Positions 13,529-19,409 of a stretch of 64,000 nucleotides of DNA are shown here, one piece after another. The first letter of the stretch is position 1; the number at the start of each line of letters is the position of its first letter. The stretch covers positions 2,418,001-2,482,000 of the forward strand of contig NZ_CP061947.1 in the NCBI RefSeq assembly GCF_014838715.1, in the 5' to 3' direction. The position numbers were made by a program, and so were the translations under genes. The notes below the pieces were generated by a model. That model was not told the origin of the DNA. It was given only the letters and a program-made list of their open reading frames with translations, and made no database searches. This stretch comes from Algoriphagus sp. Y33. GTDB lineage: Bacteria > Bacteroidota > Bacteroidia > Cytophagales > Cyclobacteriaceae.

Positions 13529-14623
13529 ATGAGAATATTTCTTTTGGCCTTTTTCTGTTTTTGCCTCGCAACAGTGAACTCCTTGGCTCAAGACATCATC
13601 TTAAAACTAAAACCTTCAGAAAAAACCTCCCAAGAAAGGAATTATACTTTCGAGCATGTTCTCGACTCCCGGGTATCAAAATCAATTGGTGAAATCTATG
13701 ATTCTGGGCGAAATAGGCATAAAGCGAACTTTGGGGAAAAATTCTCAGAAGAAGTACTTAAGTTTTTCAATGCCAAAATAATTCCTTCCCAAACTATTGA
13801 CCACCACATTACAATCAAAATCTACAATATAGACCTCAAGGAAATTTATCAAGCAGGTCGCAACTCATATAAAGGAGACCTACAATTAGGCTTGGGATTT
13901 TTTCTAACCGGCAAAGATGAACCTGTTCACTTGGTGGACTTCAACGGTAAACTTCAATACAGCAGACCCGCCTCACAAATGCATCATGCAGAAGCATCTA
14001 TCCAAAGACTATTCGAAAATAGCAGGGAATACTTTGATGCCTGGCTTGCTACCCAATACCAAAGCAACAGAGCTCTGGTCAAATCAGTCCGGCTGAATAT
14101 TATCGACCCCATAAGACCAAGCAGCAAAGACACCGTGTTTTATGATCCGGGCAGGCCATTGACTTGGGTAGATTTCACAGAAAGCCCCAACCCCAAAAGT
14201 ACTTTCAATGCCGCTATATTCAGTAGTCTTTCCATAGAAGGAAATGCAACAATTGAGGATGGGGAAATAGTACAGAATCTGGAAATTAAGGTATATATGC
14301 TGCCCAATCAATCTTGGGTGAAAAATGCCAATGGCTATGCCAGCAATCACGAGCAAAGACATTTTGACCTTACCAGAGTCACCGCCGACCGGATGATAGC
14401 AAGATTGAAAGATACAGAATTGGAGCCTGAACTATTTGAAGCAAAACTCAATACCATCTACATGGATTCCTACAGAGAAATGAATCGCCTACAGGAATTG
14501 TACGACGGCCAGACTAGACATGGCTTAAATAAAGAAATACAGGCTAGATGGAATCAGATAATCACTCAAGCATTGGCAGGAAATTGGGCGATACTCGATG
14601 AAATGCTATTGGAGGAAAAGTAA
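13529..14623 (+). CDS. Secreted DUF922-like protein
   Basis: 364 aa from the ATG at 13529, which begins a good signal peptide (RIFLLAFFCFCLATVNSLAQ); an earlier ATG at 13502 adds nine residues. The C-terminal half resembles DUF922, a predicted zinc-dependent protease-like family: PLTWVDFTESPNP opening and the HEQRHFDLT motif (HExxH-like arrangement H-E-Q-x-H) at about residue 278. The N-terminal half (about 20-180) is not recognised. Peptidase activity is an inference from the motif only. No operon partners. Confidence 0.68.
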   Translation: MRIFLLAFFCFCLATVNSLAQDIILKLKPSEKTSQERNYTFEHVLDSRVSKSIGEIYDSGRNRHKANFGEKFSEEVLKFFNAKIIPSQTIDHHITIKIYNIDLKEIYQAGRNSYKGDLQLGLGFFLTGKDEPVHLVDFNGKLQYSRPASQMHHAEASIQRLFENSREYFDAWLATQYQSNRALVKSVRLNIIDPIRPSSKDTVFYDPGRPLTWVDFTESPNPKSTFNAAIFSSLSIEGNATIEDGEIVQNLEIKVYMLPNQSWVKNANGYASNHEQRHFDLTRVTADRMIARLKDTELEPELFEAKLNTIYMDSYREMNRLQELYDGQTRHGLNKEIQARWNQIITQALAGNWAILDEMLLEEK

Positions 14624-14672
14624 GTTGACTGAAAAATCTCCAAAGTTTAATTTTCGAAAAAGTGCCTCTCCA

Positions 14673-14703
14673 TTTGCATATTTTCTAGTCATCCCTATCT
14701 TTG
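14673..14703 (+). promoter_or_regulatory. his operon promoter, exact Bacteroidota consensus
   Basis: TTTG (14673-14676), 19-base spacer, TATCTTTG (14696-14703) match TTTG-N19-TAnnTTTG exactly. Predicted transcription start near 14708, about 185 bases upstream of hisG and immediately ahead of the leader ORF. Confidence 0.8.
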
Positions 14704-14712
14704 CCAACGATA

Positions 14713-14796
14713 ATGGAAAACAGCAATAGAAATATTGATTTTTTAGCAACTGCACATCAGGGCAACTTGATGCACCATTTCCATCATTCCTCCTGA
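14713..14796 (+). CDS. Putative his operon leader peptide
   Basis: Short ORF of 27 codons that ends in MHHFHHSS and then TGA (five His codons in total, four of them in the last eight residues). It starts about 5 bases after the predicted transcription start; an alternative internal ATG at 14770 gives just MHHFHHSS. The sequence right after it can fold: ATTCCT (14786-14791, the last His/Ser codons) pairs with AGGAAT (14796-14801), and the overlapping GGAAT (14797-14801) can instead pair with ATTCC (14835-14839), followed by GCTTTT. This is the layout of a histidine attenuator: ribosome position on the His codons would decide which hairpin forms. Codon content and location are seen; regulation is inferred. 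Confidence 0.7.
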   Translation: MENSNRNIDFLATAHQGNLMHHFHHSS

Positions 14797-14845
14797 GGAA
14801 TAGTATAACACACCCGGTGAAGCCGATGATAGGGATTCCGCTTTT
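14786..14845 (+). promoter_or_regulatory. Candidate attenuator region of the his leader
   Basis: Mutually exclusive pairings: 14786-14791 with 14796-14801, or 14797-14801 with 14835-14839. The second encloses a small CGG/CCG hairpin (CGGTGAAGCCG) and is followed by GCTTTTAA. Which structure terminates and which antiterminates could not be settled by eye. Confidence 0.5.
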
Positions 14846-14892
14846 AACCAACATTTATTACATCCTTTTATTTCTTAGCGTAACTTGCCACC

Positions 14893-15753
14893 ATGGAAAA
14901 AATAATCCGTATTGCCGTACAAAAAAGCGGCAGATTATCCGAAGATTCACTCAGCCTCATCAAAGAATGCGGCATCAAATTCTATAATGGAACGGGTAAA
15001 CTCAAGTCCACTTCCACCAATTTCCCTATCGAATTCTTATTTCTTCGTGACGACGATATCCCGGGGTATGTAGCCGACGGCGTAGCTGATCTTGGAATCG
15101 TAGGTCAAAACGAAGTAGTGGAGAAAGATAAAAATGTCACTACCCTAAAAGCTTTGGGATTTTCCAAATGCAGGCTTTCCCTTGCCGTGTCCAAAGGACA
15201 ACAATACAATGGAGTGGAGTTCTTTGAAGGAAAAAGCATTGCCACCTCCTATCCCAAAATCCTTGGAGATTATCTCAAAAGTCAAAACATCAATGCAGAT
15301 ATCCACGAAATCTCCGGCTCAGTAGAAATTGCGCCCAGTATAGGCTTAGCTGAAGGAATCTGCGATATAGTCAGCTCCGGCTCCACACTGATGATGAATG
15401 GCCTGAAAGAAGTCGAAGAAATCTTCAAATCCGAGGCTGTACTGATCGCAAATAACGGCCTGGAAGATTGGAAAAAGGAAATTGCCGAAAAATTACTTTT
15501 CAGAATCAATGCTGTCCAAAAAGGTAAGAGCAGCAAATATGTGCTCTTGAACGCTCCAAATGAATCCATTGAAAAAATTATCAATCTGATTCCCGGAATG
15601 CGCAGCCCTACGATTTTACCACTTGCACAGGAAGGTTGGTCATCTGTCCATTCTGTTTTGAATGAAGATCAATTCTGGGAAAATATCGAGGAACTCAGAG
15701 CTGCCGGCGCAGAAGGCATACTAGTCGTTCCTATCGAAAAGATGATTCTTTAA
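14893..15753 (+). CDS. hisG: ATP phosphoribosyltransferase, long form
   Basis: First step of histidine synthesis, joining ATP and PRPP. 286 aa, the length of the HisG long form, which carries a C-terminal PII-like regulatory domain for histidine feedback (about residues 210-286, MRSPTILPLAQEGWSSVHSV onward) and works without HisZ. Seen: RIAVQKSGRLSEDS, the central GIVGQNEV, and the PRPP-binding segment ICDIVSSGSTLMMNGL. First structural gene after the His-rich leader; hisD follows after a 195-base gap that contains palindromic repeats. Confidence 0.97.
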   Translation: MEKIIRIAVQKSGRLSEDSLSLIKECGIKFYNGTGKLKSTSTNFPIEFLFLRDDDIPGYVADGVADLGIVGQNEVVEKDKNVTTLKALGFSKCRLSLAVSKGQQYNGVEFFEGKSIATSYPKILGDYLKSQNINADIHEISGSVEIAPSIGLAEGICDIVSSGSTLMMNGLKEVEEIFKSEAVLIANNGLEDWKKEIAEKLLFRINAVQKGKSSKYVLLNAPNESIEKIINLIPGMRSPTILPLAQEGWSSVHSVLNEDQFWENIEELRAAGAEGILVVPIEKMIL

Positions 15754-18311: not shown

Positions 18312-19409
18312 ATGAAGAAGAAAGTGCTTTTTATAGATCGGGACGGAACCATCATCAAAGAACCGCCCACTGATTTTCAAGTTGACAGCTTAGAGAAGTT
18401 GGAATTTTTGCCAAAGGCAATTTCCAACCTTCGCAAAATCGCCGAGGAAACTGATTTTGAATTGGTCATGGTAACCAACCAGGATGGGTTGGGCACGGAT
18501 TCTTTTCCTGAAAAAACATTCTGGCCCGCACAGTTCAAGATGCTCAAAACACTGGAACAGGAGAATATTTTCTTCAAGGAAATCCATGTGGACAAGACTT
18601 TTGAAAAAGACAATGCTCCTACCAGAAAACCAGGAACAGGACTACTGACTGCATACTTTTCCGAAGAGTACGATCTGGCCAATTCCTATGTAATCGGAGA
18701 TCGGCAGACAGATGTGAAGCTGGCAGAAAACCTTGGAGCAAAAGCTATTTTCATAGGCTCATCAGCTGAAAATGCAGCTTTGGTTACCACCGACTGGGAT
18801 GAGATCTATGAATTTCTGAAAATGCCTCCCCGTGCAGCAGAAGTAAGCCGCAAGACTTCTGAAACTGACATTTACATCAAACTGAATCTAGATGGAAACG
18901 GAAGCTGTGACATCAAAACAGGTTTGCATTTCTTTGACCATATGCTGGAGCAGCTAGGCAAACATGGCAGCACAGATCTTGAGATCAAGGTTAATGGCGA
19001 TTTGCACATAGATGAACATCACACGATAGAAGATACGGCATTGGCTCTTGGAGAGGCGTATTTAAAAGCTTTGGGAGACAAAAAAGGAATCTATCGCTAC
19101 GGTTTCCTTCTTCCTATGGATGATGTATTGGCTCAGGTAGCTATTGACTTTGGAGGCAGACCTTGGATGGTATGGGATGCGGAATTCAAGCGGGAAAAAG
19201 TAGGCGATATGCCAACTGAGATGTTCTATCATTTCTTCAAATCCTTTTCTGACACTGCCAAATGCAACTTGAATATCAAAGCAGAAGGGGATAATGAGCA
19301 TCATAAAATTGAGGCTATCTTCAAGGCATTGGCAAGAGCCATTAAGATGGCGGTAATGCGGGATGCCAGAAATATCAATCAACTTCCAAGTACCAAGGGA
19401 GTACTTTAG
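18312..19409 (+). CDS. hisB: Bifunctional histidinol-phosphatase / imidazoleglycerol-phosphate dehydratase
   Basis: Fused HisB, 365 aa. Residues 1 to about 165 form a HAD phosphatase with the nucleophile motif IDRDGT and [15 protein letters not shown]; about 175-365 form the IGP dehydratase with the manganese-binding histidine clusters [23 protein letters not shown] and [13 protein letters not shown]. This fusion is normal in Bacteroidota and enterobacteria. Last gene of the visible his operon; hisH, hisA, hisF and hisIE are not here. A strong terminator follows at 19468. Confidence 0.97.

Follow-up and report, generated by a model that had tools for sequence, protein, structure and literature searches.

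Control of biosynthetic operons by amino acid attenuators is textbook knowledge in Proteobacteria. In the his attenuator of E. coli and Salmonella (hisL; Rfam His_leader), a short leader ORF before hisG contains a run of His codons, a hairpin lies over the end of this ORF, and ribosome stalling serves as the sensor. The E. coli trp leader holds its stop codon in the loop of a 1:2 hairpin at the end of the leader, with 2:3 and 3:4 pairings as alternatives, while leaders of the tnaC and mgtL type are leader-peptide-controlled and Rho-dependent. Among the open-access literature matches listed, with subscription papers outside this scope, there is no description of a his leader in Bacteroidota. 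The available portion of PMC9413887 treats his attenuators in Firmicutes and mentions RBS-sequestering variants, with no occurrence of "bacteroid" in that text; the available portion of PMC8305728 covers the his genes of Bacteroidota, with no occurrence of the word "leader"; and PMC4833913, in the portion available, mentions Bacteroidetes leader genes for their reinitiation distances.

The element described here precedes hisG in Algoriphagus sp. Y33, within the whole 64,000-nucleotide stretch of DNA that was analyzed (the window). Like hisL, it has leader His codons before hisG and a hairpin over the end of the ORF, and a stalled ribosome is its proposed sensor. It differs from hisL in lacking an intrinsic terminator, a conserved antiterminator (none was found) and an Rfam match, in arranging its codons as HHxHH rather than as a His run, and in its near-leaderless start. 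As in the trp 1:2 hairpin, the leader stop codon sits in the loop of a hairpin (H2), but 2:3 and 3:4 type alternatives were not found in the window element. A short ORF, a G-poor untranslated spacer and the lack of an intrinsic terminator are shared with the tnaC/mgtL type, although Rho dependence, like any structure hiding or exposing a Rho site, is putative in this element. A further likeness is to leaders of the class Bacteroidia that we term Type I (L059-L062, L092 and most of L254-L280), in which hisG is likewise preceded by a His-rich leader and, in many cases, by a TAnnTTTG box. Type I leaders, however, contain terminators such as GGCTTACC/GGTAAGCC followed by a T-run, and 14 of 26 have an upstream complement to the terminator 5' arm, whereas the window element has neither.

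The regulated gene, hisG (14893..15753, forward strand; Pfam PF01634 and PF08029), is followed on the same strand by hisD, hisC and hisB, in that order, to 19409 (PF00815, PF00155 and PF00475). HisG is 97% identical to its counterparts in A. locisalis, A. winogradskyi and A. aquimarinus, and hisB (18312-19409) encodes a fused HAD-type phosphatase and imidazoleglycerol-phosphate dehydratase. A second his cluster occupies approximately 693.7-696.1 kb of the same genome, comprising hisH, assigned by eye from approximately 693.7 kb, and then two PF00977 genes; no His leader is evident by eye upstream of this hisH.

Conservation was assessed in several partly overlapping sets. The genus set comprises 36 same-genus genomes, including that of Y33, of which 33 have a hisG match and the best 30 of these 33 were aligned. 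A broader set of 88 sequences from 86 genomes (40 from the genus and 48 others) is based on a leader pattern that matched 99 of 159 sequences; ten were removed by hand before counting (L040, L043, L045, L047, L058, L061, L064, L068, L095, L155), as was L153, in which no hisG start was found. Two genomes are represented twice (G139 by L033 and L124, G166 by L034 and L118), and three sequences that carry the element were missed by the pattern (L126, L127, L151).

A first-pass annotation of the window had pointed to an exact consensus promoter upstream of the leader ORF, and it is indeed present: a -33 element, TTTG (14673..14676), and a -7 element, TATCTTTG (14696..14703), lie on the forward strand with 19 nt separating TTG from TA, which we take to be the exact Bacteroidota promoter consensus. 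The match alone is not significant, as the -33/-7 pattern occurs six times in the 64-kb window versus 5.6 expected by chance; conservation makes it convincing, with TAnnTTTG upstream in 87 of the 88 related sequences and TTG exactly 19 nt before the box in 78. A sigma-70 promoter scan of the window does not cover this promoter type. The leader ATG falls 6-10 nt past the TAnnTTTG box in the 84 sequences of the 88 where it can be placed, and 7-9 nt past it in 29 of the 30 genus loci (the promoter of L025 is lost at a contig end), so that leader transcription would start only a few nucleotides before the ATG. The annotation regarded such a near-leaderless peptide start as unusual, yet the short 5' leader is conserved over many genera and is no anomaly.

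The leader ORF itself (14713..14796, forward strand) consists of 27 codons and a TGA, MENSNRNIDFLATAHQGNLMHHFHHSS, beginning at an ATG (14713) 9 nt past the -7 box and ending, at TGA 14794-14796, with the peptide HHFHHSS approximately 100 nt upstream of hisG. Its control codons, His21 His22 Phe23 His24 His25, occupy 14773..14787. This ORF, annotated at first pass as His-rich and ending MHHFHHSS before hisG, is confirmed by its conservation in the genus and in other genera of the family. It is present in all 30 aligned genus loci (the best 30 of 33 hisG matches), is 25-27 codons long in the 29 that are whole (L025 lacks its 5' end), and finishes in HHFHHS or HHFHHS-x, with HYFHH (L017) and HRFHH (L030) as exceptions. 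In the genus alignment, indels between the ATG and the His codons measure 3 or 6 nt (L006, L011, L020) and His codons 21 and 22 alternate between CAT and CAC, both of which fit translation. The locus combines a leader ORF with control codons for the operon's own amino acid, a promoter before that leader, and a position directly upstream of the operon, and the conservation of codons, reading frame and promoter bears out the earlier proposal of a translated His-codon leader of the his operon. Very probably the leader senses His-tRNA supply, that is, histidine shortage; this sensing role appears well supported by conservation and by analogy with the his and trp attenuators.

Comparison with relatives, as the annotation had proposed, finds the His codons, H2 and an additional hairpin, H1, all conserved, with the codons sandwiched between the two hairpins. 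H1 (14755..14772, forward strand) lies inside the ORF and adjoins the His codons on their 5' side. It covaries, six of its seven pairs being changed on both sides within the genus with 76.2% of cells paired, and the H1 region folds more stably than shuffles do (mean z -1.49 for the 40 genus and -1.29 for the 48 other sequences). H2 (14786..14801, forward strand) has the arms 14786-14791/14796-14801, ATTCCT-CCTG-AGGAAT, and holds the leader stop UGA in and at its loop. A stem of at least 6 with a loop overlapping the stop codon is found in 78 of the 88 sequences. H2 is nearly invariant within the genus, where four of seven pairs never vary and none has changes on both sides, whereas between genera its arms change in step (ATTCCTC/GAGGAAT, ATCTCTC/GAGAGAT, ATTCCTCC/GGAGGAAT). 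H3 (14816..14849, forward strand) is a two-tier stem with no U-run after it; three of its ten pairs are changed on both sides in the genus, and a hairpin lies at the same position in other genera. Across 22 sequences from other genera, 95.5% of inner-stem and 72.9% of outer-stem cells are paired, but covariation is not clearly above that of shuffles (37 of 500 score as high, to be read as counts rather than probabilities), so that outside the genus the case for H3 is one of position and pairing. When column pairs were scanned in 58 genus sequences, H2 and H3 were recovered along with low-variation helices, while H1, which is out of register in that alignment, was missed.

The first-pass annotation had left open which of these hairpins is the terminator, and the answer is probably none of the usual kind, with at best a weak one at H2. 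A tool scan of the region 14300-15300 of the window returned no intrinsic terminator between leader and first gene, and our own scan (stem of at least 5, 3 GC pairs, 6 T in 8) passes only 14 of the 88 sequences (13 of 86 genomes), 12 of them through H2 with an A/U-rich tail and 2 through H3. No U-run follows H3 in the window or in the genus alignment, and H3 was rejected as a general intrinsic terminator. In two sequences, L138 and L161, a hairpin at the H3 position has a T-rich tail and passes the scan; these may be intermediates between two his-leader designs. Five of five Type I controls pass, all chosen because a terminator had already been seen by eye.

H2 could nevertheless be a terminator in its own right, giving a minimal attenuator: stalling on the neighboring His codons would place the ribosome over the 5' arm and so keep transcription from terminating at the A/U-rich tail. 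This model has the correct sign for starvation, and it draws on the 12 sequences (one genome counted twice) in which H2 and its tail pass the scan, as well as on a mildly raised T content after H2 of 3.44 versus 2.57 per 8 nt. Against it, only 28 of the 88 have five or more T in the 8 nt after H2, several Algoriphagus tails read GATACATAC or AGATACTAC, and a ribosome at the leader stop codon would block H2 as well. We consider the model unlikely; H2 may still act as a weak terminator or pause, and intrinsic termination may operate in part of the set.

Type I leaders show what a terminator-bearing his leader looks like in this class. Two genera of the same family (g23 and g24; L059-L062, 4 genomes) and one sequence of the same order (L092) have a His-rich leader followed by a strong intrinsic terminator; because g23 and g24 retain this textbook attenuator, two designs coexist in one family. 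In L059-L062 the poly-His leader ends RGRFMF or similar, and by eye its RNA could form base pairs with the 5' arm of the terminator. HisG matches were found in 58 genomes of other orders, and among the best 26 of these 58 regions a His-rich leader was found by pattern in 24, a terminator by scan in 21, and an upstream complement of at least 6 to the terminator 5' arm by scan in 14; L254, L256, L257 and L267 also appear, by eye, to have terminators, which the scan fails to detect. By inspection, the 200 nt before hisG in L254-L280 contain a CAT-rich leader, a GGTAAG-type half-site and terminators of the kind GGCTTACC..GGTAAGCC with a T-run. Among the other-order regions examined, the canonical attenuator is the common arrangement, and the window element departs from it. 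Since g23, g24 and 21 of the 26 regions have terminators, nearly all with His-rich leaders, the window element belongs among the His attenuators and is most likely a derived, terminator-poor variant of the Bacteroidia his attenuator. Rfam has no matches in the window at gathering scores, and in six loci searched at E up to 0.5 (L258, L279, L059, L061, L092 and L099, the last being the window element) there was no match to His_leader, the only two matches, both sub-threshold, being to Thr_leader and Phe_leader in L059.

Classical attenuation would require a second structure competing with H2. The first-pass annotation proposed overlapping pairings, H2 itself and GGAAT/ATTCC (14797-14801/14835-14839); the former is conserved, while the latter, though present in the window and in nine other genus sequences, does not hold as a general switch. 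Its restriction to certain lineages (10 of the 40 genus sequences and 11 of all 88) led us to reject it, and a U-run is missing after H3 in both the window and the genus alignment. The fold of the genus alignment likewise shows no conserved new pairing or alternative fold with the H2 3' arm free. Two further candidate switches were rejected: an alternative hairpin B:A' is not significant (mean z +0.52, 87 sequences), and A':C gives a mean z of -0.45 (87 sequences) with coevolution p of 0.31, or 0.07 in a reduced set. When A':C sets were delimited by hand, 26 of 31 folded below -1 kcal/mol, again with no significant coevolution, so this pairing is suggestive only; in the automatic search for both hairpins some H3 assignments are visibly off (e.g., L145, L149). 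A long-range ACAUAUCG/CGUAUAUUG pairing near hisG, with 98.1% of cells paired in 22 sequences, was set aside for its small variation and the absence, by eye, of one arm in other genera. No conserved, mutually exclusive antiterminator was thus found, and we regard classical attenuation as originally proposed as highly improbable.

RNAalifold raised a different possibility by pairing leader UUCCAU with hisG AUGGAA, a duplex kept in all 30 genus rows with one G-U. Under such translational attenuation, the leader His/Phe codons would sequester the hisG start codon by pairing until ribosome stalling released it. On average the duplex is more favorable by 1.6 kcal/mol than duplexes with AUG-preserving shuffles of the start region (median p 0.215). 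The accessibility predicted for the hisG start, stall versus free RNA, rises by more than 0.1 in 24 of the 88 sequences and falls in 3. Swapping partners between species, however, makes no difference (-6.64 kcal/mol within versus -6.62 between species), hisG ranks only 14th of 46 window gene starts for duplex formation with this leader, and mean accessibility is 0.53 with the ribosome at the His codons and 0.53 with it at the stop, against 0.48 in free RNA. Moreover, UUUCCAU persists in genera whose hisG starts AUGAAU. The species-swap, gene-start ranking and accessibility tests led us to reject start sequestration: a conserved form relieved by stalling was not found, the signals being weak and partial, and translational attenuation is very unlikely.

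Between H2 and H3 lies a spacer (14802..14815, forward strand) that is A/U-rich, then C-rich, and G-poor, with at most one G per spacer in the 30 genus loci. Approximately 10 nt past H2, many other genera strongly keep ACATATCGCCC, in place of which Algoriphagus has an ACACCC-type sequence; among the pairings tested, none provides a partner that explains this conservation. A second conserved block, TTAGCGTAACTTG (14875..14887, forward strand), lies just ahead of hisG, reading AGCGTAA or AGTGTAA by eye in 23 of 30 genus rows and CTAAACGTATATTGC in other genera. Over alignment columns 148-165 the block appears as TTAGCGTAACTTGC in Algoriphagus and CTAAACGTATATTGCAT in other genera. It resembles the -7 box minus one base, with the exact TATATTTG in L128 and L133, and might serve either as a promoter for leaderless hisG or as an RNA element. 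A second promoter ahead of hisG was rejected, as visual inspection shows no -33 element at a fixed distance from the block. The H3 loop within the genus, and ACATATCGCCC in many genera, are conserved beyond what the tested pairings explain, which would also suit a regulatory leader whose output is mRNA stability or the binding of a protein to H3 or to conserved single-stranded sequences. Against this, the sequence of the H3 loop differs from genus to genus, and the genome of Y33 has no second copy of the element, the hisG leader being the sole significant place in a covariance search (E 1.3e-18; next 3.4); we judge such an output quite unlikely.

The element extends well beyond the genus. With a covariance model built from 13 genus sequences and E up to 0.1, a search of the family matched 80 of 295 genomes and 25 of 84 genera. 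We aligned 61 of the 81 family matches, and 58 lie upstream of hisG; the other three (L163, L164, L168; genera g111, g127, g150) do not, and because three of the 25 matched genera are thus false, 22 of the 84 genera searched have the element. In the order sample, 37 of 291 genomes and 16 of 115 genera match; eight of 11 matches in other families were inspected, of which six, all from family f13, are the same element before hisG and two (L288, L289) are not. A sequence from another order (L262) also ends HHHSS with a stop-codon hairpin. When a simple filter was applied to another sample of the order, 18 of 69 hisG upstream regions showed a His-rich ORF and 51 showed none, which speaks against generality. 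A pattern search found the leader in 69 of 80 named relatives, a set that overlaps the other genomes sampled, so that the two are not independent. Nine of the 11 pattern misses were inspected by eye, L226 and L236 being cut short upstream: HHSS is retained in Aquiflexum (L215) and Cognataquiflexum (L223), where the first His pair is degenerate, Lunatibacter and Lunatimonas have other His arrangements, and Cyclobacterium is weak. In the Lunatimonas sequences L234 and L243, a short hairpin carries the last two His codons in its loop and is closely followed by the stop.

These comparisons suggest a working model in which the hisGDCB leader acts in cis through its His codons. The ribosome would translate the 27-codon ORF, as its conservation implies. 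When charged His-tRNA is ample, the ribosome would pass HHxHH, open H2, terminate at the stop codon in the H2 loop and depart, after which transcription would stop inside the approximately 100-nt untranslated stretch before hisG. When His-tRNA is scarce, the ribosome would stall at the His codons, H2 lying at its entry side; H1 and H2 would be kept open, and transcription would reach hisG. The stop would most likely be factor-dependent (Rho-type), acting on the G-poor spacer, with a retained ribosome shielding the transcript. To this reading, a cis-acting His-codon leader in which ribosome retention versus release decides transcription into hisG, probably through a Rho-type stop, we assign a probability of roughly one half; the histidine response, its sign and the output step are inferred.

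For the output step itself, factor-dependent termination prevented by a retained ribosome has perhaps one chance in three. We favor it on three grounds: the leader has H2 at its end, the distance from leader stop to hisG is nearly constant (median 103.5 nt, interquartile range 100-109, range 86-185 in the 88-sequence set), and most relatives have no terminator of the usual kind. The rut-like composition is not distinctive: over the 60 nt preceding hisG, C minus G is 10, a value that 7 of 29 window genes (hisG included) attain. Because stalling would likewise leave RNA accessible to Rho, the sign of the response needs the assumption of a retained ribosome, and no alternative structure coupling ribosome position to output was demonstrated among those tested (B:A' and A':C).

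At the level of the family, we tentatively propose, at well under even odds, that Cyclobacteriaceae and some relatives replaced the intrinsic-terminator his attenuator of other Bacteroidia by a terminator-free sensor, in which His codons are clamped by two hairpins, the stop codon forms a hairpin loop and a near-constant 100-nt gap follows, and in which ribosome retention versus release, not alternative pairing, decides factor-dependent termination. The near-leaderless start codon, locked to its promoter over many genera, is also a clean system in which to test how initiation proceeds when a 5' leader is lacking. If the proposed reading is right, the class Bacteroidia has a widespread his attenuator together with a lineage that keeps the sensor without the canonical terminator, and would provide a natural experiment both on the readout of a stalled ribosome and on the workings of Rho and coupling in Bacteroidota.
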